From IMG/VR virus record IMGVR_UViG_3300028388_002027, positions 1 through 41,373 of that record: a stretch of DNA of 41,373 bases; one strand, given 5' to 3'. Every line of letters begins with the position of its first letter. The first letter of the stretch is position 1. A program made the translations under genes and the position numbers. This document shows, one piece after another, positions 2,306 through 22,892 of this stretch. The notes under the pieces were generated by a model. It was not told where the DNA came from, ran no database searches, and was given only the letters and a program-made list of their open reading frames with translations. Source of the stretch: a virus.

Positions 2306-3685
2306 TTAGTTAGTCTCCACCGTCCAGCTTTTTGCCTGCAGCGATGCTTTCGCGGTTAATCCGGCCCCAGTAGCCGCAGCATTACCAGTCCCTCCGAGAT
2401 TTAAAGTTCCCGATGTGCTTCCAGCGTTATCGAAGGCGATAAGTAGTCCGTTCACAGCCGATTCAGAAAGCAAGTTGTTTTGTGCCTCAAATTCGCTGAT
2501 GGCACTGCTTACAGTACCGCCAGCCCAGCCGGTGAGTTCGTTGTTGTTGCAGTAGAACAGCTGCAACGCAGTGTTGCTGCTCAAGTCTGGAATACTTCCG
2601 GTTAGCTGGCCTCTGTCGCAGGAGAACCACTCCAACGCTGTATTGCTGCTCAGACCTGGAATACTTCCGGTTAGCTGGTTTCTGCCGCAGGAGAAATACT
2701 CCAACGCTGTATTGCTGCTCAAGTCTGGAATGCTTCCGGTGAGTTCGTTGTTGTTGCAGTAGAAATGCTGCAACGCAGTGTTGCTGCTCAAGTCTGGAAT
2801 ACTTCCGGTTAGCTGGTTGTTGTAGCAGTAGAAATACTGCAACGCAGTGTTGCTGCTAAGGTCTGGAATACTGCCGGTTAGCTGGTTGTTGTGGCAGTAG
2901 AAATACTGCAACGCAGTGTTGCTACTAAGGCTTGGAATGCTTCCAGTTAGCTTGTTGTCGTAGCAGTAGAACCGCAGCAACGCAGTGTTGCCAATCAAAT
3001 CTTCACTCCAAACTAAGGCGTGAGGAGAAGTTAGCGTTGTTGTTCCAAGGTCAAGGCTGGAATTGCTATTAGCGCCAAGCGTAATCGTAGTTGTGTCACC
3101 ATTTGCACCGACAATCAAAAGGTCGCTCGTTGACGCATCATTTAGCCATGCACGTAAATTTGCCAGCGTCGAATCGTTCGTGACGCTAATCATAAATTTC
3201 TGCGTGCCGTATGCGTTCGCAATGGCTGTCAACTGAGCCTCTGTAAGCCCTTCGTGGACTATGACATCAGTCGGCCAGTTCAGCGGTACGCGAACATTGA
3301 CCCCATCAAATTGCATGTCTGGCGTGTACTGCCAACCGTATGGCGTAGCAATTACCATGTCGCCAGTTGTCAGCGTATTGGTCGCCACCAGCGCATCATC
3401 AACGAAGTCGCTTTCGATAACCGACTGCCCGTCTATCGTATCTGCAAGCGGGCGGGCTGCATCGGACGGGGCGGTTGCGTCATTGTCATTACCGCTCTTA
3501 TCAAGCATGTGGCCAACAGTCTGACCAGCCGCCGTAACAGGCGTAGTCCCTGCGCGGTCCTGGAACAGCGTCGAGAAGTCTGACAGGTCATACCATGCGC
3601 CTTCTTCGCTTGCGGCAAATAAGTCGGCCGGGGTCCACACTCCGCCAGATGACGCCTGAGCGACAAAACCCAATTGGAAACGCAT
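2306..3685 (-). CDS. Tail fibre with seven 23-residue leucine-rich repeats
   Basis: 459 residues from the ATG at 3685-3683, which overlaps the upstream stop as TGATG; a longer frame from 3721 would overlap that gene and is not preferred. The N-terminal about 70 residues (GAWYDLSDFSTLFQDRAGTT and following) resemble virion proteins that carry a concanavalin-like region. A middle region follows. Then come seven repeats of 23 residues built on SSNTALQYFYCYNNQLTGSI, and a C-terminal cap. The repeats match the LTGSIP type of leucine-rich repeat. Predicted role: adhesin whose solenoid binds the host receptor. The 69-bp DNA repeats are nearly identical. Confidence 0.8.
   Translation of the reverse strand: MRFQLGFVAQASSGGVWTPADLFAASEEGAWYDLSDFSTLFQDRAGTTPVTAAGQTVGHMLDKSGNDNDATAPSDAARPLADTIDGQSVIESDFVDDALVATNTLTTGDMVIATPYGWQYTPDMQFDGVNVRVPLNWPTDVIVHEGLTEAQLTAIANAYGTQKFMISVTNDSTLANLRAWLNDASTSDLLIVGANGDTTTITLGANSNSSLDLGTTTLTSPHALVWSEDLIGNTALLRFYCYDNKLTGSIPSLSSNTALQYFYCHNNQLTGSIPDLSSNTALQYFYCYNNQLTGSIPDLSSNTALQHFYCNNNELTGSIPDLSSNTALEYFSCGRNQLTGSIPGLSSNTALEWFSCDRGQLTGSIPDLSSNTALQLFYCNNNELTGWAGGTVSSAISEFEAQNNLLSESAVNGLLIAFDNAGSTSGTLNLGGTGNAAATGAGLTAKASLQAKSWTVETN
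2515..2990 (-). repeat. 69-bp tandem repeats encoding leucine-rich repeats
   Basis: About seven in-frame 69-bp units share the core GTTGCTGCTCAAGTCTGGAA (plus-strand view) with few substitutions, concentrated at codons for the variable surface residues (YCYNN, YCHNN, SCGRN, SCDRG). This fits expansion and contraction by recombination while frame is kept. Confidence 0.85.
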
Positions 3686-4314
3686 CAGCTTACGGCCCCA
3701 ATTCCACCAACAGCAATCCACTCATCAGTGCCGCGCTTATACAGCGTGATACCCGCATACTGATCCGAAGCATCACCAGAGCCGGCAGACACGCCATTAA
3801 CCGTCACCCCGGTATCGCCTGCGATGGTGGTGGTGCCTGCCCCGTACTGCACGACATCGACCCTGGACCCTGTAGGAAACGCAACAGACGCATTTGTCGG
3901 GATGGTCAAGGTGTTGGCATTGGCGTTGTTCATTTCGACAATCTTCCCCTTGTCAGCCAACGCAAGCGTGTAGGCGGTTCCGGTCTGCGTGTTGATCGCA
4001 GTCACTTCACCCAGGGGTTCAAAGTTTGTGTCAGCATAGGCTTTCACGCTCTGCTGCGTCGGCACCTTGGTGGCAAGGTCGGAGGACATATCGTCCTCAT
4101 CGACAACCCAGCCGTTGCCAGATACGTCCGTATCGGCGTTGTAGGTAATGTCTGCAGTATCGGACAGGTCTGTTGACGCTACAGATCCGGCAAGATTGCC
4201 GACAGTGATTTTCTTGGATACGGGAGAGCCTGCCGGGTCGTCAACGATATACAAAACATCTGCAGCAGCAGCAGACGTTAACGCGGTGAGATCAGTTGTC
4301 TTAGTATCTGCCAC
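3685..4314 (-). CDS. Phage tail fibre / appendage protein
   Basis: 209 residues starting MADTKTTDLTALTSAAAADV, an opening I know from N-terminal regions of phage fibres, with a C-terminal beta-rich half (TLTIPTNASVAFPTGSRVDV) and a short tip. It probably forms a trimeric stalk. It is the second gene after the capsid and overlaps the leucine-rich-repeat fibre by one base. The exact attachment point in the particle is not evident. Confidence 0.7.
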   Translation of the reverse strand: MADTKTTDLTALTSAAAADVLYIVDDPAGSPVSKKITVGNLAGSVASTDLSDTADITYNADTDVSGNGWVVDEDDMSSDLATKVPTQQSVKAYADTNFEPLGEVTAINTQTGTAYTLALADKGKIVEMNNANANTLTIPTNASVAFPTGSRVDVVQYGAGTTTIAGDTGVTVNGVSAGSGDASDQYAGITLYKRGTDEWIAVGGIGAVS

Positions 4315-8280: not shown

Positions 8281-8634
8281 CTACAAATTCCAAGTATCGT
8301 CGCCAAATCCTTGATTTGGGTGTCGTAAGTTCTGCAGATAGCGCGAGATCACGCGATTGATCGTCTGCACCGGCACTTGGTATTTTGCGGCCAGGAGCTT
8401 GCGGTTGTCCTGGCCGTTTTTCCGCTGCTTCTGCCAGTCGCGGATGATATGGCGGTTACGGATGTGCGGCGACGTGGCGTCGCGCACGTAGTGTTTGGTG
8501 CCGCCCCAGCGCAGACGCAGCTCACTGGTCACCTTTTCGACCACTGCGGCGGCCTGGGCGTCGCTCAGAATTGCCCGAAGTTCCCGGCGCATCTCTCGTT
8601 CGACCTCGTTGAGGATGTCGCCTTCTTTCTTCAC
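8281..8634 (-). CDS. Mor-family transcription activator-like protein
   Basis: 117 residues from the GTG at 8634, which overlaps the terminase stop as GTGA; a GTG at 8646 is possible but sits directly against the ribosome-binding site. The C-terminal half contains RLRWGGTKHYVRD, then RNRHIIRDW, then LAAKYQVPVQTINRVISRYL. That is the Mor/C family layout of a beta-strand dimer region followed by a helix-turn-helix. In Mu such proteins activate middle or late promoters. Here it sits within the late operon between large terminase and gpW, so self-reinforcing late activation is a reasonable inference. Confidence 0.75.
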   Translation of the reverse strand: MKKEGDILNEVEREMRRELRAILSDAQAAAVVEKVTSELRLRWGGTKHYVRDATSPHIRNRHIIRDWQKQRKNGQDNRKLLAAKYQVPVQTINRVISRYLQNLRHPNQGFGDDTWNL

Positions 8635-10547
8635 CGGATGGCCCACTCCTCAGAACCAAAACCATGGCCGGGCGTCGGCCGGCGCGTTCGTTTTGGCGGC
8701 GGGGTATCGGACGGCGCCTTGAGCGGTTTAAGCGCCGCTGCGCCCCCGGCCAAGAGCAGAGCGGCGTACGCCAACACCCTATTATCCAGCGCCTCGTTAC
8801 GAGGCCGTGTCGCGACCCACTCTTTGAAGGGGCGTCCCTTCTTATAGCGGACCACCAGCTTCTCCGCGGTCAGCTGCAGGAAGTACTCCTCATCCCGCCC
8901 CTCGGGGAAGTGACAGTACCCTGGCCCCGGCACCGCCACCTTGAGCTGCCGCTGGACGACAGATTTACCTTCGTCGACGCCGACCAGTTCCGGGCGCACG
9001 CCCTTCTTCGCGCGGGTCTTGCGCAGCCGCTTGCGCCGATCGACCAGGGGCTCGACGACCGGGCGGCCCTGGCCGGTCACACCCTTTGTCGGGTAGCAGT
9101 GCATGCCCGCCCTACGACAGAAGTCGTAGACCTTCTCCGGCAAGTAGCCGGAGTCGACGCAGACCGAGCTGATACCGATGTCCATGCCGTTGGCATGCCG
9201 GTAGCGGGCCTTTGTCAGCTCGAGAAGGTCGTCCCAGACCTGGTCCTGGGTCGTCTCACCGGGGAGGATCTGGTAGTCGATCGACCAGCTCTCGAGGGTG
9301 GGCGACCAGGCCACGATCTCAGCCTCGATGCGGTCGGCCTGGATGTCGCAGCCCATCGTCAAGATGACACCGTCAGGAACTTCGTCTTCATACGGTTCAC
9401 AGCGGTCAAGCAGCGTATGCCCGCTGACCTTCTCGCCGCGCTCTTCGTACGTCTCGCCGAGGACTGTGTTGACGTAGGTCTTCAGCTCCTCGGGGTCTTC
9501 TTTGACCGCCAGGAACTCTTTGACCAGTTTTGCTGGGGTGCTGTTGGGCGAGTAGCTGTAGCCAGCCCAGATGCGGAACCCGATATCGCCGGCAAAGCCG
9601 GGGAGGAACGTGAAACCGGTTTCCTGCCGCCATTCCCAGTGCTCGCCCAGCCAGTAGCCGGCCTGCATCATTCGTCGGTGGTTGGAGTGGTCGATCAAAC
9701 TGCCACAGTCGGGGCAGACCCAAGCTGCGGTCTCCGGTTTGCCGTCCTCCCAATGGAGATGTGAGACGGGTATTTTCCGTTCGCGAATTACGATCGGGTC
9801 TTCCGGTTGCCGAAACAACCGGATGTGCTCGCCACCACACTCGGGGCACCGCAGCATGAAGTGCCCTTTGCTGGATCGCTCGAAGGCCTTCTCGATACGT
9901 GAGAAGTCCTTCTCGGTCGGTGTCGAGCCGATGCCAATCTTGCGGTTCCAGAACGTCTCGGTGCGCTTCTCCCCCAGTTTGATCTGGTCGCCTTCCGTGC
10001 CGGCCGTGGGCGGATAGCCGTCGACCTCATCAAACAAAGTCAGCCGCACGGTGATGCGCCGGAAACCTCGAGGGCTGTTGGCGCCGATGACGTGCAATAT
10101 GCCGCCAGGGTAATGTTTCTTGTTGATCGTGTTGCCGGTGGCCCGGCTCTTCTGGTCGCCCACGCGCTCAAGCAACACCGGAGTGTCCTCGATCGCCGTT
10201 GTCAGCTCTTCTTTCGACCACCCCTCGGCGTCATCGATCGTCGGCTGCACGATCAACATGGAGCAGGGGTCCAGGTGGATGTGGTATCCGATAACGTGAC
10301 CGAGGATTTTCGTCCAGCCGATCCGCGCCGACTTGAGCGTTACGACGCGCTCGACCTCCGGCGCGCAGAAGGCGTCCATCATTGCCTTCTGATAGGGGTA
10401 GGTGCGCCACGGGCCTGGCTCGGCTGATGACTCGGCCGAAAGCACGCCGTATTGATCCGCCCACTCGCTGACCGTCAGCGTCGGGGGCGGCGCCCCCGCG
10501 TGTGTGAATTCAGTCTTGAGCAGGGAATGCAGCGTCGAGTGCGTCAT
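8631..10547 (-). CDS. Terminase large subunit, lambda gpA family
   Basis: 638 residues, the usual gpA length. The ATPase half shows LKSARIGWTK (residues 71-80) as the variant Walker A and LTLFDEVDGYP as Walker B. A zinc-binding pair (LRCPECGGEH, later WVCPDCGSL) follows. The nuclease half has acidic residues in TMGCDIQADRIEAEI and SVCVDSGYLPE and the closing RNEALDNRVLAYAALLLA typical of the family. It cuts and pumps DNA into the prohead through the portal. It overlaps the small subunit gene by 38 bases, with AGGA upstream of its ATG. Confidence 0.94.
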   Translation of the reverse strand: MTHSTLHSLLKTEFTHAGAPPPTLTVSEWADQYGVLSAESSAEPGPWRTYPYQKAMMDAFCAPEVERVVTLKSARIGWTKILGHVIGYHIHLDPCSMLIVQPTIDDAEGWSKEELTTAIEDTPVLLERVGDQKSRATGNTINKKHYPGGILHVIGANSPRGFRRITVRLTLFDEVDGYPPTAGTEGDQIKLGEKRTETFWNRKIGIGSTPTEKDFSRIEKAFERSSKGHFMLRCPECGGEHIRLFRQPEDPIVIRERKIPVSHLHWEDGKPETAAWVCPDCGSLIDHSNHRRMMQAGYWLGEHWEWRQETGFTFLPGFAGDIGFRIWAGYSYSPNSTPAKLVKEFLAVKEDPEELKTYVNTVLGETYEERGEKVSGHTLLDRCEPYEDEVPDGVILTMGCDIQADRIEAEIVAWSPTLESWSIDYQILPGETTQDQVWDDLLELTKARYRHANGMDIGISSVCVDSGYLPEKVYDFCRRAGMHCYPTKGVTGQGRPVVEPLVDRRKRLRKTRAKKGVRPELVGVDEGKSVVQRQLKVAVPGPGYCHFPEGRDEEYFLQLTAEKLVVRYKKGRPFKEWVATRPRNEALDNRVLAYAALLLAGGAAALKPLKAPSDTPPPKRTRRPTPGHGFGSEEWAIR

Positions 10548-11055
10548 TGGTGTCCTTGAGAACTACGTTCAGTTCTGCTTTGACCGCCAGAATGGCGGCG
10601 GCTTCAGACTCGGCGGCCAGCGCGGCGTGCGCCAGGCGAGGCGGGGACGCCAACAGTCGGTCGCGCTGCACTCGAAGAATGTCGAAAACGGCTTTGCGGA
10701 TCTTGCTCAGTTCGACCAGGTCGCCGCGGCGCTTGAGGTACTCGAGCTTCGCCAGGCGGGCCTTGTGCAGCTCGTTCTGAGTACGCGCGGTCTGGTAGTC
10801 GATGTGGTCCGAGGCCAGGGGGTCGTCTTGACCGTCATCGGGGAGGTCAGGCAGCTCGGCCGCGGGCTCGGTGTAGCGGATATGCTTCTGGGTGTTCCGC
10901 TCCCACTCCTGGTCGGCCTTCTCGAAGTCGATCTTCCAACGCTTGCCAACGCGCCGGAGACTTTTTTTCAGCCTCCCTTTTTTAATGGCCTCCGTGACGG
11001 TATTTGGCGAGCAACCGCGGTGCTTGGCGTACTCGCCCTGATTACCAAACGGCAT
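10510..11055 (-). CDS. Terminase small subunit, Nu1-like
   Basis: 181 residues. The N-terminus has a winged helix-turn-helix of the Nu1 type (EYAKHRGCSPNTVTEAIKKG, then VGKRWKIDFEKADQEW). A linker and a long helical region (QTARTQNELHKARLAKLEYL) follow, as in small terminases that bind the packaging site and recruit the large subunit. It is the first gene of the late block, directly downstream of a sigma70-like promoter and the DnaA-box region. Confidence 0.85.
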   Translation of the reverse strand: MPFGNQGEYAKHRGCSPNTVTEAIKKGRLKKSLRRVGKRWKIDFEKADQEWERNTQKHIRYTEPAAELPDLPDDGQDDPLASDHIDYQTARTQNELHKARLAKLEYLKRRGDLVELSKIRKAVFDILRVQRDRLLASPPRLAHAALAAESEAAAILAVKAELNVVLKDTNDALDAAFPAQD

Positions 11056-11085
11056 AGATTTGGTCCGAGTGAAAATATCACGCGC

Positions 11086-11113
11086 AGTATAGAAAAAATA
11101 TTATCCTTGTGAA
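11086..11113 (-). promoter_or_regulatory. Candidate sigma70 promoter for the late block
   Basis: On the minus strand TTCACA (11113-11108), a 16-base AT-rich spacer and TATACT (11091-11086) lie about 30 bases upstream of the terminase small subunit ATG. The AT-rich context (11085-11135) could also act as a DNA-unwinding element beside the DnaA boxes. It could be a middle promoter helped by the Mor-like protein. Confidence 0.55.
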
Positions 11114-11228
11114 AACTTTTCAAAATTTTTAAGTAATACAGGTACTTACGGAACCATATGGCTGCACGAAAAGCGCGGTCCCCACCCGCAAGGGCCGGCG
11201 GCCCCAGGAGAACCTACAGAGAACGGGG

Positions 11229-11292
11229 TTATCCACAGGTTATCCACAGGTTATCCACAGGTTATCCACAGGTTATCCACAGGTTATCCACA
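11229..11292 (+). repeat. Six DnaA boxes in tandem, 11-bp period
   Basis: TTATCCACA, a perfect match to the DnaA box consensus TTATNCACA, occurs at 11229, 11240, 11251, 11262, 11273 and 11284, each unit TTATCCACAGG. The 11-bp spacing puts all boxes on about the same face of the helix, suiting cooperative DnaA binding. Possible roles are replication origin, DnaA titration, or DnaA control of the nearby late promoter. Confidence 0.9.
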
Positions 11293-11340
11293 GATAAGTG
11301 GGTGCTTACTAACCTTTAACCCTTTGATATTGCGCTGTCA

Positions 11341-11524
11341 GGGTGCGGAGGCGGCAGCCAGGGTGCGGAGGCGGCAGCCAGGGTGCGGAGGCGGCAGCCA
11401 GGGTGCGGAGGCGGCAGCCAGGGTGCGGAGGCGGCCGGAGGCGGCAGCCAGGGTGCGGAGGCGGCAGCCAGGGTGCGGAGGCGGCAGCCAGGGTGCGGAG
11501 GCGGCAGCCAGGGTGCGGAGGCGG
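11341..11524 (+). repeat. 20-bp GC-rich tandem array, about nine copies
   Basis: The unit GGGTGCGGAGGCGGCAGCCA starts at 11341, 11361, 11381 and 11401, then a 30-bp variant at 11421 carrying an internal 10-bp duplication, then 11451, 11471, 11491 and a partial unit at 11511. Copies are otherwise identical, which implies recent expansion or homogenisation. Copy number may be miscounted by short-read assembly. Confidence 0.95.
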
Positions 11525-11628
11525 CCCGATCGATACCACTATAGGCTCAGGGTATGGGCGCGCGACAATCGCCGCGGAAATGGCCGCGCAAGGCGCCTAG
11601 TAGGAAAGGCGCGCGCGATGGGTGCAAC

Positions 11629-11654
11629 AAAAAAGGCGCGCCGATTGGCGCGCC
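11629..11654 (-). terminator. Strong intrinsic terminator for the island operon
   Basis: On the minus strand GGCGCGCC, loop AATC, GGCGCGCC, then TTTTTTG: an 8-bp all-GC stem and a six-T tract, 25 bases after the stop of the last small island gene. It should end leftward transcription before the repeat and DnaA-box region. Confidence 0.88.
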
Positions 11655-11678
11655 TCGTTTAGGGGTTAGGGGTTCCGG

Positions 11679-11759
11679 TTATTTGCGACGCCGCATGCCG
11701 CCAGCAATCGCCCAAATCAAAACGAATAGAGACCAAAGGATAAGGAGTAGGGTTTTCAA
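11679..11759 (-). CDS. Tiny single-span membrane peptide
   Basis: 26 residues if started at the TTG (11759-11757), which overlaps the preceding TGA as TTGA. The peptide is one hydrophobic helix (KTLLLILWSLFVLIWAIAGG) followed by MRRRK, a positive-inside membrane anchor. The frame ends 25 bases before a strong terminator. Coupling by overlap, clear membrane character and position support a real gene, but it is very short and starts with a rare codon. Function unknown. Confidence 0.5.
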   Translation of the reverse strand: MKTLLLILWSLFVLIWAIAGGMRRRK

Positions 11760-13186: not shown

Positions 13187-13645
13187 CTAAATTAGGCCTT
13201 TCTCAGCAAACGAGAAACTATCAGCGCCCACAATAATATGGTCGAGTACCCGCACGTCGACGAGGCGCAGCGCATCGACCAGGCGCGTAGTCAATCGGAC
13301 ATCGGCGGTAGAGGGCTCAGAAACACCGGAAGGGTGATTATGGGCGAAGACAACCGCCGCGGCGTTTAATTGGAGCGCGCGCTTTACTATCTCGCGCGGC
13401 CAAACACTGGCGCCGTCAATAGTACCGGTGAACATGGTTTCGCACGCGATAAGCGCATGGCGCTGAGTTAAGAATGCAACAGCGAATTGCTCAGACTCAT
13501 AACCCCCGACTTTTAACCGCATAAAATCGGCGGCCGCGGTTGTTGAGGTAAACGCGCTAACATCCGCGTCGACTGTATAAGCGTATTCGCGTTCCAAAAC
13601 TTTCAACGCGCGGGCGATTAGTCTTTTGTCTTTGTCGGTTAGCAT
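13187..13645 (-). CDS. radC: RadC-like JAB-domain protein
   Basis: 152 residues with GGAGA eight bases before the ATG. The JAB/MPN metal site is intact: Glu in the N-terminal part, [20 protein letters not shown] near residue 97 (the HxHPSG...D signature), and KGLI at the end. It equals the C-terminal domain of bacterial RadC and lacks the N-terminal helix-hairpin-helix part, as in plasmid and phage RadC-like proteins often placed among antirestriction genes. The biochemical activity of the family is unsettled. Island neighbours of unknown function fit an accessory or anti-defence role. Confidence 0.88.
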
Positions 13646-14097: not shown

Positions 14098-14188
14098 GGC
14101 GGCGCCCGCTCGGCGGCGCCCGCTCGGCGGCGCCCGCTCGGCGGCGCCCGCTCGGCGGCGCCCGCTCGGCGGCGCCCGCTCGGCGGCG
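14097..14188 (+). repeat. 14-bp GC-rich tandem array, six copies plus partial
   Basis: The unit CGGCGGCGCCCGCT repeats from 14097 (first base varied) every 14 bases, with a partial seventh copy ending at 14188. Each unit contains the self-complementary GGCGCC. Confidence 0.95.
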
Positions 14189-14198
14189 TTAACTTAGA

Positions 14199-14262
14199 TT
14201 ATATTAGAGTCGGCTTATATTAGAGTCGGCTTATATTAGAGTCGGCTTATATTAGAGTCGGC
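14199..14262 (+). repeat. 16-bp AT-rich tandem array, four copies
   Basis: The unit TTATATTAGAGTCGGC is present four times without mismatch and is flanked on both sides by TAACTTAG. The AT-rich half could melt easily, like origin 13-mers. On the minus strand a perfect TATAAT occurs at the array edge (14203-14198) and could serve the leftward island genes, though no good -35 is seen. Confidence 0.95.
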
Positions 14263-14279
14263 TAATATTAACTTAGGTT

Positions 14280-14351
14280 AAAAAGCCAAAGCCGTTTGAA
14301 AAAGCCAAAGCCGTTTGAAAAAGCCAAAGCCGTTTGAAAAAGCCAAAGCCG
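14280..14351 (+). repeat. 19-bp tandem array, three copies plus partial
   Basis: The unit AAAAAGCCAAAGCCGTTTG repeats at 14280, 14299 and 14318, with a 15-base partial copy from 14337. It starts within 20 bases of the end of the 16-bp array. Confidence 0.95.
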
Positions 14352-14532: not shown

Positions 14533-14736
14533 TTGACACGAGTGACACGAAGCTCCAATTTCCTAAAGCCGATCAACAACTTACAGCCGATACCTGAGAT
14601 GACATATAGCTGCTTCGTGTCACTGATGTCATGCACTTTTTTTGCAAAACCCTGTTTTTACGCAGTAAGTATTTGATTTTAAACGCTCAATCCTTCATGT
14701 CACATGCACCAAACCCTGGTGACATGTTGACATGAA
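14533..14736. repeat. Cluster of eight TGACA/TGTCA motifs with a 13-bp inverted repeat
   Basis: TGACA or its complement occurs near 14534, 14543, 14600, 14618, 14627, 14698, 14720 and 14728. AGTGACACGAAGC (14541-14553) is matched by its exact reverse complement at 14612-14624. A second dyad, CATGTCAC/GTGACATG, spans 14696-14726. By chance fewer than one such 5-mer would be expected in 200 bases counting both strands. This looks like a protein-binding array: operator sites or iterons. Confidence 0.65.
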
Positions 14737-14750
14737 GCTTTGCGCACTTT

Positions 14751-16916
14751 TTATGCATCCGTCCCAATTTGCCGGCGGTTTGCATAAATTATGCGACCCT
14801 CCCGCGACCACCAGAACCGCCACTCCACGCCCGGTGCCTGCCCGGAAACGACAATATGCTTGTCGGCCTCCAGGTGGTCGAGCGTGCGCTGGAAGGTCGA
14901 TTTCGATACCTCTTGATTGGTGCCGTGGAGCCGGTTGACGCAGCGATCGATCAGGCTGTTTCGCGGCTCTCGGTCGGCCGCCATGCTGTTGCACAGGTAG
15001 GTGATCCGCTCGAGGCGGATGTCCTCGTCGTCCACCCCGCCGGCCGCGGTCGTCTCCGGCAGCTCGTAGGGCCGCGGCACGCCCACCTCGTCGCCGTTCA
15101 ACAAGGCCACAGACTCGAGGCGGAACCAGTTGGCCTCGGCGTCGGGCAGCCCAAAGTTGCTCTTGGCGATGTCATGGCGGAACAGCCGCACCCTATTGTC
15201 GTCGCTGATCCCGCGGTCCTCGGCAGTCTCGGTCGACATGCGCGCCAGGGTTGACGTCACCCGTGCGGCGTCCCTGATGGCCGAGGCGCCCCGGCCGGCG
15301 TCCCCCGAGGCCGCGTGTGCCTCGCTGTTCTTGCCCGACCCCTTGGCCGAGTGGTGGATCAACGTCACCCCCACGTTGGCCTCGGCGGCCAGGCGGCGGA
15401 AGCACATCATCACCTTGTTCATCTCGATGTTGTCGTTCTCGTTGGCGTCGTGCGTCGCCACGAACGGGTCGATGACCACGTTCAGCACGTTCTGCCGCTG
15501 GCAGATCCCGATGATCGCCTCCATCGCCGCCGTTGGCTGACCGCTTGCCACCAGCAGGCCCTCTTTGCCGTAGAGGGATTGCAGCAGCAAGCGGTCACCT
15601 AACCCCAAAGCCGCCATGTCCAGTTTGAAGGCCTGGCAGGCCCCGTGCAGGCGCCGGGCGATCTCCAGCTTGTCGTCCTCCCAGTTGATCATCATCACCT
15701 TGCCTTGCTGATGCACGCGCTCGCCGGTCAGCTCCTGCCCGGTCACCAAAGCTAAAGCCGAGACCAGTGAGAACACCGACTTCCCGACCCCGCCGGGGGC
15801 CATCTCGACGTTCACGTACCCGCGCAGCACCCGGTGCCCGAGCAGCCACTCGCGCCGGGGGATCTCCTCGATCGGTGGGATCTCGAGCGCGCCCATCTTG
15901 ATCGTCTTGCCTACCTCCACAGCGGCCTCCTGGGTGACCTGGTCGGGCGGCATCGTCCACCCGGTGTCCTTGGCGGCCTTGATCAGCGAGGCCATCGTCA
16001 CCGGGCGGTTGCTCGACGGCACCAGGCGCAGCTGGTCCCACTTCCGGAGCGTCGCGTCCCAGCCGTCGTAGCCGGCGACGCGCTCGCTGAAGTAGTGGAA
16101 AAGCGCAAAGCCGTCAGCGGAGTCGTCGTCCCACTTGAGTGCGTGGCCCACCGCGACCCAGCTGTGGTAGTTGTGTGCGTCAGCGTACTCGGGCAGCGTC
16201 GCCAGGTGCTCGAGCAGGCTGCGCTTCTGGGCGTCGTCGAGGTTCGACCGCGGTGGCAGGTCGGCCAGTTCGCGGTGCTCCAGTGGCGCTGAGGGCTCGG
16301 GTGGCGGTGCCGCGTTGTCGGCCGGGGCCAGCAGCTCGCCGGCCTGACGGCGGAACAGATAGTCCTGACCGTCCGACGTGGTTGGTAGGAACGCCGGCTG
16401 GGATGGGGTCAGACTGGCCCGCTCGTCGCACGACACCCCGGTCATCTTGAGTCGGTAGATGATGTTGCGAGTCGCGGTCTGGTGCGCCCCCACGTCGACC
16501 GGGTGGGCGTACGGGATCAACAACCGGTAGCGTCGATCGCCGGCCAGGCTCGACCGGGTCGAGTGGACGAGACACTCCCGGTTGGGCACGCACTTCAAGA
16601 TTGCGTCTATCGAGGCATCAGAACCTTCTATGTCGATCTGTGCGCCGGTTCTGTAGCGAACGGCGCCGTTGTTGCGGCGATCGCCGTCGAACTCGGCGAG
16701 AATAAAGTAGCCGCGCTTGGCCTTGCGCCTTGTGCGTTCCTCTTTTGAGAGGGCCTGGTACTCGTCGATTGAGATCGGGTCGACCGGCGCCATGCGCAGC
16801 TTCTCTACCAGGGCGCCCCAGGCGATGGTCTCGTTGTGGATGGTCGCGCCCGTCCCTTTACCGACAGCGATGGACAGCAGTAGATCGTGGTGGCTTGTAG
16901 TCTCCAAGGGTCTCAT
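14751..16916 (-). CDS. Primase-helicase: AEP-type primase, PriCT_2 and RepA-like helicase
   Basis: 721 residues; the ATG at 16916 has GGAG five bases upstream. Residues about 55-210 resemble the primase-polymerase region of phage replication proteins (TGAQIDIEGSD, CLVHSTRSSLAGDRRYRLLI). Residues about 230-300 carry the PriCT_2 linker (HNYHSWVAVGHALKWDDDSA, DGWDATLRKWDQL). From about 355 onward is a RecA-fold helicase: Walker A MAPGGVGKSVFSL, Walker B NVVIDPFVATHDANEN, and VTLIHHSAKGSG. It would open origin DNA and prime synthesis for the family A polymerase on the opposite operon. Its 3' end borders the TGACA cluster and tandem arrays. Confidence 0.87.
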   Translation of the reverse strand: MRPLETTSHHDLLLSIAVGKGTGATIHNETIAWGALVEKLRMAPVDPISIDEYQALSKEERTRRKAKRGYFILAEFDGDRRNNGAVRYRTGAQIDIEGSDASIDAILKCVPNRECLVHSTRSSLAGDRRYRLLIPYAHPVDVGAHQTATRNIIYRLKMTGVSCDERASLTPSQPAFLPTTSDGQDYLFRRQAGELLAPADNAAPPPEPSAPLEHRELADLPPRSNLDDAQKRSLLEHLATLPEYADAHNYHSWVAVGHALKWDDDSADGFALFHYFSERVAGYDGWDATLRKWDQLRLVPSSNRPVTMASLIKAAKDTGWTMPPDQVTQEAAVEVGKTIKMGALEIPPIEEIPRREWLLGHRVLRGYVNVEMAPGGVGKSVFSLVSALALVTGQELTGERVHQQGKVMMINWEDDKLEIARRLHGACQAFKLDMAALGLGDRLLLQSLYGKEGLLVASGQPTAAMEAIIGICQRQNVLNVVIDPFVATHDANENDNIEMNKVMMCFRRLAAEANVGVTLIHHSAKGSGKNSEAHAASGDAGRGASAIRDAARVTSTLARMSTETAEDRGISDDNRVRLFRHDIAKSNFGLPDAEANWFRLESVALLNGDEVGVPRPYELPETTAAGGVDDEDIRLERITYLCNSMAADREPRNSLIDRCVNRLHGTNQEVSKSTFQRTLDHLEADKHIVVSGQAPGVEWRFWWSREGRIIYANRRQIGTDA

Positions 16917-20648: not shown

Positions 20649-22892
20649 ATGCCCCTCTTCTTCCTCGACACTGAGACCTACCAGGGAGATCCTGCAAAGG
20701 ATCTCCCCAAGGTGGGGCACTGGAAGTACAGCACCGGGGCTGAGATCACCCTGGCGGGGTATTTCTGGAACGGGACCGCCACGGTCTGGGATCTGCGTCA
20801 AGACGCCACCCCCGACGAGACCTTCGTCACGGCGGTCCAGAACCCGGAGCTGGTCAAGGTCGCGCACAACGCACCGTTCGACTACGTGATGGTCAAGAAC
20901 GCACTGCAGCTCGACACGGCCATCCAGCACTGGCACTGCACCTCAGTCCAGGCGCTTGCCCACGGCTTGCCTGGCAGCCTCGCTCAACTCGGCGAGGCGC
21001 TCGGGCTCGACGAGGACAAAGCCAAGATGAAGGACGGCAAGCGCCTGGTGCTGAACTTCTGCAAGCCCGCAGGAGACCACCGCAAGGCCGACCGCTATGA
21101 CCACACCAACCGTCCCGACGACTGGGAGCGGTTTGTGGAGTACTGCCGGCAAGACGTGGTCGCGCTGCGCGAGATCTACGATCGACTGCCGACGTGGAAC
21201 TACCCCGACAACCGCGACGAGGTCGAGCTGTGGCATCTCGACCAGAAGATCAACGAGACCGGGCTGCCGATCGACCTCGAGACCGTGAACAAAGTCATCG
21301 ATGTCGTCGACCGGGAGGCCGAGCGCCTACACGCGATCATGCGCGAAGTGACCGGCGGCGCTGTCGAGTCGGGCACCGCGGTCAAGCAGTTGAAGGACTG
21401 GATGGCCGCGCAGGGCGTCGAAACCGACAGCCTGGCGAAACCGGCCGTCAACGCGCTCCTGGCCGGCGAGCTGCCGGAGAGCGTGCGGCTCGCGCTCGAG
21501 ACCCGCCAGCAGGCAGGCAAGACGAGCACCGCCAAGTACATCAAGCTGAAAGAGGCCACCGACGCTGACGGCCGGCTCCGCGGCACGCTGCAGTTCTGCG
21601 GCGCGTCGAGGACTGGCCGCTGGGGTGGAAGGCTCTTCCAGCCACAGAACCTCCCACGGGGCAAGGTGAACGGCACCGTGGCCGCCGAGGCCTTCGCCGC
21701 CGGCATTGCCCACCTCTGTTACGCCGACCTGATGGAGGCGGCCAGCTCGGCGGTGCGCGGTATGATCTGCGCGCCGCCAGGCAAACGCCTTGCGGTCGCC
21801 GACCTGGCGAACATCGAGGGCCGGGTGCTGGCCTGGGTGGTTGAGGACGAGGAGAAGCTCGAGCGGTTCCGCGCGTACGACGCCGGCACCGGGGCGGATC
21901 TCTACAACGTCGCGTATACCGATACGTTCGGCGGTGATCCGTGGAACTGCACCAAGGCGCAGCGGACGGTCGGCAAGCCGATAGAGCTTGGCCTGGGCTA
22001 CGAGGGCGGCGTGGGCGCGTTCAACACGATGGCCGCCGTCTACGGGGTCAACCTGGACGACATCTACACTGAGATCTGGCCGACTGCGACCGAGGAGGAG
22101 CAGGAACGCGCTGAGTGGATGCTGCAGTTGATGCGCGGTAAGAAGGTGCTCTCGGAGATGACCGACGAGCAGATCCTCGGCGCCGACGTTGTCAAGCAGC
22201 GGTGGCGGGCCAAGAACCCCAAGGCCGTGCAGTTCTGGCGCGACATGCGCGACGCCACGACCGACGCGGTGCTGTCGGGCATCTCAACCAAGGTCGGTCG
22301 GGTGGTGGTCAGCAAGACGCACCACAGCGGAGCTGGCTACCTACTGATCCGACTGCCGTCAGGCCGGTTCCTGTCTTACCCTCACCCAGAAATCGTCTAC
22401 ACCCGCTACCAGGTGCGCGGCGTAGTCGAGGTCGACGGTGAGGCGCACCCGTTCCGCAACGAGTACCCGGTTTACAGTTGCCGCGAGGCCCGCAAGAGAA
22501 CCGAGGCCGACATCGCCGAGCGTTTCGGCGCGGAGGTGGATTGCACTGTTTGTGAGTTTTTTTGCGAAGCAGTGAAAACGTCGGCCTGCGTAACGTACAT
22601 GGGGCTCAATCAGCAGACCCGGCAGTGGGAACGGTTGACCAGCTACGGGGGCAAGTTCACTGAAAACATCTGCCAGGCGGTCGCCCGCGACGTGTTGGCG
22701 CACGGCATGAAGCTGGCCGATGCTGCCGGCTACAAGATCGTGACCACAGTGCATGACGAGATCGTCACCGAGATCAGCGAGGGTGAGCTGAACCACACCT
22801 ACCTCGAACAGCTCATGTCCGACAACCCGCCTTGGGCCGAGGGGCTCCCCTTAGCCGCCGAGGGCTACACCGCGAAGAGGTACAAAAAGTGA
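20649..22892 (+). CDS. DNA polymerase, family A, with 3'-5' exonuclease
   Basis: 747 residues. Exonuclease motifs: DTE at residues 7-9, HNAPFDY near 75, and YCRQDVVALREIYDRL near 160. Polymerase motifs: GASRTGRWGGRLFQPQNLPR near 318, motif A VADLANIEGRVLAW near 382, the O-helix region KAQRTVGKPIELGLGYEGG near 435, and motif C VHDEIV near 701. Motif A has DLANIEGR where bacterial Pol I has DYSQIELR, as in a phage subgroup of family A. It is the replicative polymerase. The stop overlaps the next gene's GTG. Confidence 0.95.
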   Translation: MPLFFLDTETYQGDPAKDLPKVGHWKYSTGAEITLAGYFWNGTATVWDLRQDATPDETFVTAVQNPELVKVAHNAPFDYVMVKNALQLDTAIQHWHCTSVQALAHGLPGSLAQLGEALGLDEDKAKMKDGKRLVLNFCKPAGDHRKADRYDHTNRPDDWERFVEYCRQDVVALREIYDRLPTWNYPDNRDEVELWHLDQKINETGLPIDLETVNKVIDVVDREAERLHAIMREVTGGAVESGTAVKQLKDWMAAQGVETDSLAKPAVNALLAGELPESVRLALETRQQAGKTSTAKYIKLKEATDADGRLRGTLQFCGASRTGRWGGRLFQPQNLPRGKVNGTVAAEAFAAGIAHLCYADLMEAASSAVRGMICAPPGKRLAVADLANIEGRVLAWVVEDEEKLERFRAYDAGTGADLYNVAYTDTFGGDPWNCTKAQRTVGKPIELGLGYEGGVGAFNTMAAVYGVNLDDIYTEIWPTATEEEQERAEWMLQLMRGKKVLSEMTDEQILGADVVKQRWRAKNPKAVQFWRDMRDATTDAVLSGISTKVGRVVVSKTHHSGAGYLLIRLPSGRFLSYPHPEIVYTRYQVRGVVEVDGEAHPFRNEYPVYSCREARKRTEADIAERFGAEVDCTVCEFFCEAVKTSACVTYMGLNQQTRQWERLTSYGGKFTENICQAVARDVLAHGMKLADAAGYKIVTTVHDEIVTEISEGELNHTYLEQLMSDNPPWAEGLPLAAEGYTAKRYKK

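Follow-up and report, generated by a model that had tools for sequence, protein, structure and literature searches.

Phased DnaA boxes in a non-coding island of a phage genome: a candidate replication origin activated by host DnaA

We analyzed a phage genome in which six DnaA boxes are arranged in strict phase next to the terminase genes. On balance, we lean towards the view that the non-coding island carrying these boxes is, or contains, a replication origin of the phage or an origin enhancer, which would be activated by DnaA of the host. The GC skew of this genome gave no signal at the boxes, and therefore the origin reading for this phage rests on anatomy and analogy. The original prediction, made from the DNA letters, was partly supported as a whole. 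Its description of the region as origin-like was well supported by comparison, namely by the helical phasing of the boxes, by chromosomal oriC arrays and by GC-skew minima in other phages.

Results

The window, i.e. the whole stretch of DNA analyzed here, is an IMG/VR virus record of 41,373 bp. Its ends overlap by 99 bp; therefore it looks like a circular assembly and its ends are arbitrary. Besides the genes presented in Table 1, domain or profile matches identified a portal, a fused protease-capsid protein, a tape measure protein and an Enc34-type SSB, and the window also encodes a DUF2800/PD-(D/E)XK nuclease and an SNF2-type helicase. No integrase was found among the window ORFs scanned. 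Searches for DNA-level relatives of the window in named phages, and for a relative of its helicase-primase in IMG/VR, returned none.

Several other features were observed along the genome. The small gene between terL and the portal gene (8281-8646) matched phrog_532, a family of late transcriptional activators (E 3e-7), and a RadC-like JAB domain protein is encoded in the early region (13187-13645; PF04002, E 1e-40). The protein encoded at 1489-2304 has a C-terminal carbohydrate-binding module (CBM_5_12) and is possibly a chitin- or sugar-binding part of the tail. ORF 2306-3721 encodes leucine-rich repeats (LRR_4) and contains a 69-bp tandem repeat (2529-2991), unusual in a phage structural region.

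Table 1. Location of the features of the window discussed in the text.
Feature	Position	Strand	Basis or remark
Terminase large subunit (terL), lambda gpA type (cos-cutting family)	8631..10547	-	phrog_15, GpA_ATPase, GpA_nuclease
Terminase small subunit (terS)	10510..11055	-	phrog_57, E 1e-24; weak HTH_17
Non-coding island, 700 bp, between terS and an upstream gene (starts 11756) with no assigned function	11056..11755		ORF map
Candidate sigma-70-like terS/terL promoter, TTCACA-16-TATACT	11086..11113	-	consensus scan, 10/12 matches
AT-rich stretch, candidate unwinding element, overlaps the terS promoter	11088..11137		nearest-neighbour stability profile
GC-rich segment between array and terS; expected place of a lambda-type cosN	11174..11215	-	weak similarity only
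Six consensus DnaA boxes as GGTTATCCACA x6, same orientation, exact 11-bp phase	11227..11292	+	
Spacer, moderately AT-rich, 3' of boxes (DUE side in oriC)	11293..11338		
Iteron-like array, nine 20-bp GC-rich units (CAGGGTGCGGAGGCGGCAGC), one 10-bp internal duplication	about 11339-11525		
Predicted intrinsic terminator of the leftward genes upstream; would shield the island from read-through	11633..11656	-	consensus scan
Second repeat island: 14-bp GC-rich x6.5, 16-bp AT-rich x4.5, 19-bp x3.8	14098..14351		non-coding
Phage helicase-primase (primase-like N-terminus, PriCT_2, AAA_25 RepA-like helicase)	14751..16916	-	
Phage family A DNA polymerase	20649..22892	+	phrog_17, PF00476

From left to right, the island contains the terS promoter-like site, the AT-rich stretch, the GC-rich segment, the boxes, a 46-bp spacer, the 20-bp units and the terminator. 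The six boxes had been predicted to repeat at exact 11-bp intervals and this was confirmed: exact TTATCCACA starts at 11229, 11240, 11251, 11262, 11273 and 11284, always on the + strand (array 11229-11292), and nowhere else in the 41,373-bp window. The repeat unit GGTTATCCACA is present in 6.1 copies with 100% identity. Allowing up to one mismatch to the box, we counted 12 matches in the window, a number that no shuffle reached. Judging from the comparisons with other arrays given below, the six boxes are very likely bound by DnaA.

The nine GC-rich repeats expected to the right of the boxes were found as well, as copies of AGGGTGCGGAGGCGGC in a 20-bp register with one 30-bp interval, where approximately 10 bp are duplicated (near 11436-11445). 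The 20-bp unit is no multiple of three, and therefore a coding repeat was rejected. We also rejected a G-quadruplex reading (G4Hunter mean 0.81, maximum 1.08, under the usual 1.2). Elsewhere the core of the unit occurred once, in a single copy, and the array form was not found. BLAST of the array alone against phages and plasmids gave no match, the low-complexity filter probably masking it, and there was no Rfam match. Among the window ORFs scanned with Pfam or PHROGs, i.e. all but the smallest ones, no Rep-type initiator for the 20-bp units was identified.

The AT-rich DNA noted to the left of the boxes proved to be less stable than any other 50-bp window in the genome. In E. coli and B. subtilis, the unwinding element lies 3' of the boxes. 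The island resembles an oriC in having multiple boxes, spaced as in viral and oriC arrays, with an unstable element adjacent to them, but this element is located approximately 90 bp away on the 5' side. Thus the strongest AT-rich stretch of the island has a position opposite to the E. coli and B. subtilis layout, which argues against an origin. The spacer on the 3' side has just two trio-like triplets, TTACTA, as in shuffles; neither a DnaA-trio nor a basal unwinding motif was located beside a box, and phage arrays in general were not enriched in DnaA-trios.

The location of the island directly upstream of terS, together with the lambda-type TerL, would also suit a packaging start. The island would then be a cos site and its repeats terminase-binding sites, with DnaA boxes that are incidental or couple packaging to replication. 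In relatives, the distance from cosQ-cosN to the terS gene downstream is approximately 85-175 bp. A cosQ-like GGGTCCTT, with at most one mismatch, was recovered in about half of the TerL relatives that we examined, and in most cases a cosN-like core comes after it; the annotation of cosL in phage BZS1 anchors this assignment. In L198 and L229, too, terS is preceded by GC-rich tandem arrays. We consider this explanation rather improbable, as cosQ GGGTCCTT is missing from the region, a profile of 11 cos sites from relatives has no match in the window, and the consensus DnaA box is not known as a terminase site. No lambda-type cosQ-cosN upstream of the window terS was detected by homology, by which a diverged site could be missed. 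By eye, the segment at about 11183-11207 resembled a lambda cosN, but it scored within shuffles and had no profile match. Likewise, the 20-bp unit as a multiplied cosN was rejected, with no match to the annotated cos of BZS1 or to lambda cos. The original prediction had proposed a search for the array in relatives. The TerL and capsid relatives (about 30-47% identity) have neither the array nor a DnaA cluster, so that this packaging module does not carry the array as a conserved element; their lack of it also counts against the origin reading. The arrays of L198 (5117-5354) and L229 (1048-1291), found in distant terminase relatives, are about 240 bp long and consist of CTGYGCCTGCC-type units.

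We compared the spacing of boxes in IMG/VR contigs from the scan sample that had two boxes within 39 bp (dereplicated to 112 viral loci). Start-to-start distances between neighbouring TTATCCACA boxes were mostly 11-13, 20-22 and 29-34 bp, while spacings of 14-17 and 26-28 bp were almost never seen (Rayleigh p about 1e-32 at 10.3 bp). Such clustering is as predicted by binding to one face of the helix. The exact triple GGTTATCCACA was present in 27 viral stretches, and three or more boxes at 11 bp with any two-base linker were present in at least 120. Therefore the array, called unusual by the original prediction, is indeed rare, but it is also recurrent, among others in phages with their own replisome. 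Intergenic location was observed for 44 of 49 arrays. Several IMG/VR phages (L014/L021, G005, G013, G034, G066, G068) have, like the window, phased consensus boxes in non-coding DNA and no dnaA. One of them, the unrelated phage L014/L021, has its elements in the order seen in the window, namely six boxes at 11 bp and, directly after them, a 20-bp array, which is perfect and of different sequence. Of 102 dereplicated loci, 21 had tandem repeats close to the DnaA cluster (8.2 expected, unadjusted for the preference of both kinds for non-coding DNA).

Two candidate regularities in the location of the arrays were rejected. Terminase genes were the commonest family of neighbours, yet of the 111 proteins that flank arrays they accounted for just about 7, which does not clearly exceed chance, and arrays at gene-strand switches were as frequent as expected (6 vs 5.1).

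In a prokaryote collection of 257 billion bases, the exact triple GGTTATCCACA was present in 15 stretches. Arrays of this unit, with 3-11 copies at 11 bp, adjoin dnaA and/or dnaN in Candidatus Binatia, Orenia and Poribacteria, i.e. they are located at oriC; in Candidatus Binatia and Orenia identical arrays lie between the two genes. We confirmed the dnaA/dnaN neighbourhood by Pfam in L272, L278, L279 and L280. In a related case, an array of seven boxes at 11-bp spacing is present twice in the 3.8-kb plasmid pSOE2 of Pantoea edessiphila (L267:3164-3618), with 61 bp between the two arrays; this is probably the origin of the plasmid.

GC skew was analyzed in the window and in 46 other viral contigs read whole, of which 7 had an end overlap and 39 did not. 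In the 7 complete, end-overlapping contigs the cluster coincided with the minimum of cumulative GC skew or was close to it (Fisher p = 4e-5); in four of them the distance was 171-416 bp. In the contigs with no end overlap, the skew was low at the position of the cluster (KS p = 2e-5); 3 of the 39 had the cluster within about 50 bp of the minimum. The window differs from the other full phage contigs, in which the array is often at the minimum: its array is 7.4 kb off, and there is no gene-level skew switch there. Thus the GC-skew check suggested by the original prediction gave a negative result, yet it was a weak test, since the skew amplitude of the window is just 0.010.

We did not find a DnaA gene in any of 14 phages with clusters, window included (the control search was positive in 13 of 14 known genomes). 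A DnaB-type helicase together with PolA is encoded in seven of the 14, matching the set-up of the window, and phage terminase, portal and head genes are present in a set of cluster-bearing contigs. The polymerases of the compared cluster phages showed no relation to that of the window detectable by BLASTP. Of the skew-positive phages, four belong to one PolA lineage (43-55% identity), while G042, G050 and G066 are outside it; therefore these four are not fully independent. The skew position, together with a phage's own replisome and the lack of a DnaA gene, suggests that DnaA arrays in such phages behave like origins.

A second repeat-rich non-coding island, which the original prediction did not include, is located at about 14 kb. 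Its three arrays are perfect or near-perfect, one of them is AT-rich and ranks second in the genome for low stability (14189), and the island lies directly downstream of the helicase-primase gene; small tandem repeats also adjoin helicase genes in CRP-811 and CRP-406. On anatomy this island is an equally good origin, which counts against an origin at the boxes. The working origin could then be the region of 14.1-14.7 kb, with the DnaA array as an accessory enhancer or secondary origin. We regard this as unlikely: the 14-kb island has no DnaA site or known initiator site, its repeats could serve the flanking genes as promoter or terminator elements, and there is no skew switch at this place either. 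Still, replication may start mainly at the 14-kb island, helped by the DnaA array as an enhancer, or both may cooperate. At about 14540-14745 we also observed TGACAYGAAGC motifs repeated in both orientations.

Discussion

The island combines features of two kinds of origins. Like the iteron plasmid origins RK2 oriV and P1 oriR, it has DnaA boxes, an AT-rich element and direct repeats of approximately 20 bp within a few hundred bp, and in those plasmids the boxes, iterons and AT-rich element act together (PMC4980987). The window has six perfect head-to-tail boxes, whereas RK2 has four. Direct repeats in the range of about 17-22 bp next to DnaA boxes are what an iteron-type origin would have, but the repeats of the window are GC-rich, a cognate Rep (winged-helix) gene was not found among the ORFs scanned, and the neighbours are terminase genes instead of a rep gene. 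The other likeness is to the oriC of Candidatus Binatia and Orenia (L272, L278, L280), where the same GGTTATCCACA unit forms an 11-bp tandem array. However, those arrays adjoin dnaA and dnaN, and the phage has neither gene; in Binatia, moreover, a CTACTACTACT run follows a further box pair, and the window has no such run.

If the island is an origin, host DnaA would fill the six boxes early after entry as an oligomer on the same face of the helix. This oligomer would strain or melt the adjacent AT-rich DNA. The opened single strand could then be offered to the phage helicase-primase, and the phage polymerase would copy the genome. The 20-bp units may bind a second protein, phage-encoded or host, that regulates or assists opening, and the repeat island at 14.1-14.7 kb might serve as a second origin or as a loading site for the helicase-primase.

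DnaA could also be bound for other purposes. The original prediction proposed that the array titrates DnaA or couples the expression of packaging genes to replication, and both proposals are possible but unsupported. As a DnaA sponge, phage copies would titrate DnaA or promote its inactivation in a datA-like manner and so stop host initiation. Each genome copy does offer six high-affinity boxes, titration by box-bearing plasmids is established (PMC5835720), and E. coli datA is likewise a cluster of high-affinity DnaA boxes outside oriC. But datA consists of two consensus and four one-misfit boxes with an IHF site, which it needs, and works with fewer consensus boxes (PMC5835720), while the window has six identical boxes in strict phase. 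We find a sponge very improbable, as there are just six boxes in one cluster and the position of clusters at GC-skew minima in other phages would be left unexplained.

Even less credence can be given to DnaA as a transcription factor for terS and terL, with occupancy of the array tuning late transcription. Six tandem boxes exceed the known need of DnaA-regulated promoters, and arrays in other phages flank many different genes. A terS promoter-like site is present in the island, and DnaA can be an activator or a repressor (PMC8203912). The array had been described as abutting the late promoter, but approximately 115 bp separate the best terS promoter-like site from the nearest box, the intervening DNA being GC-rich, and this distance speaks against such regulation.

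We return to the origin reading and to its extension beyond this phage. Phages with a complete replisome are usually thought to be independent of host DnaA. We tentatively propose, as a possibility somewhat short of probable, a widespread and undescribed class of phages that have their own helicase-primase and polymerase and start replication at oriC-like phased DnaA arrays. In the phage analyzed here, an iteron-like array of 20-bp units would come in addition, so that its origin, located next to the packaging genes, would resemble that of a plasmid. In the literature searched, which lay mostly outside subscription journals, phased arrays were not described as a phage class, and DnaA boxes were predicted in a single phage origin (PMC11512268). 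That origin, in phage PseuGes_254, was likewise predicted from DnaA boxes and AT repeats, but by Ori-Finder and in a different, larger genome.

In summary, the helical-phase and GC-skew results make the origin idea testable with existing genomes. If phased arrays are origins, the level and ATP state of host DnaA would gate phage replication, and DnaA would be a host-range and defence target. Moreover, origins would be readable directly from many uncultured phage genomes.
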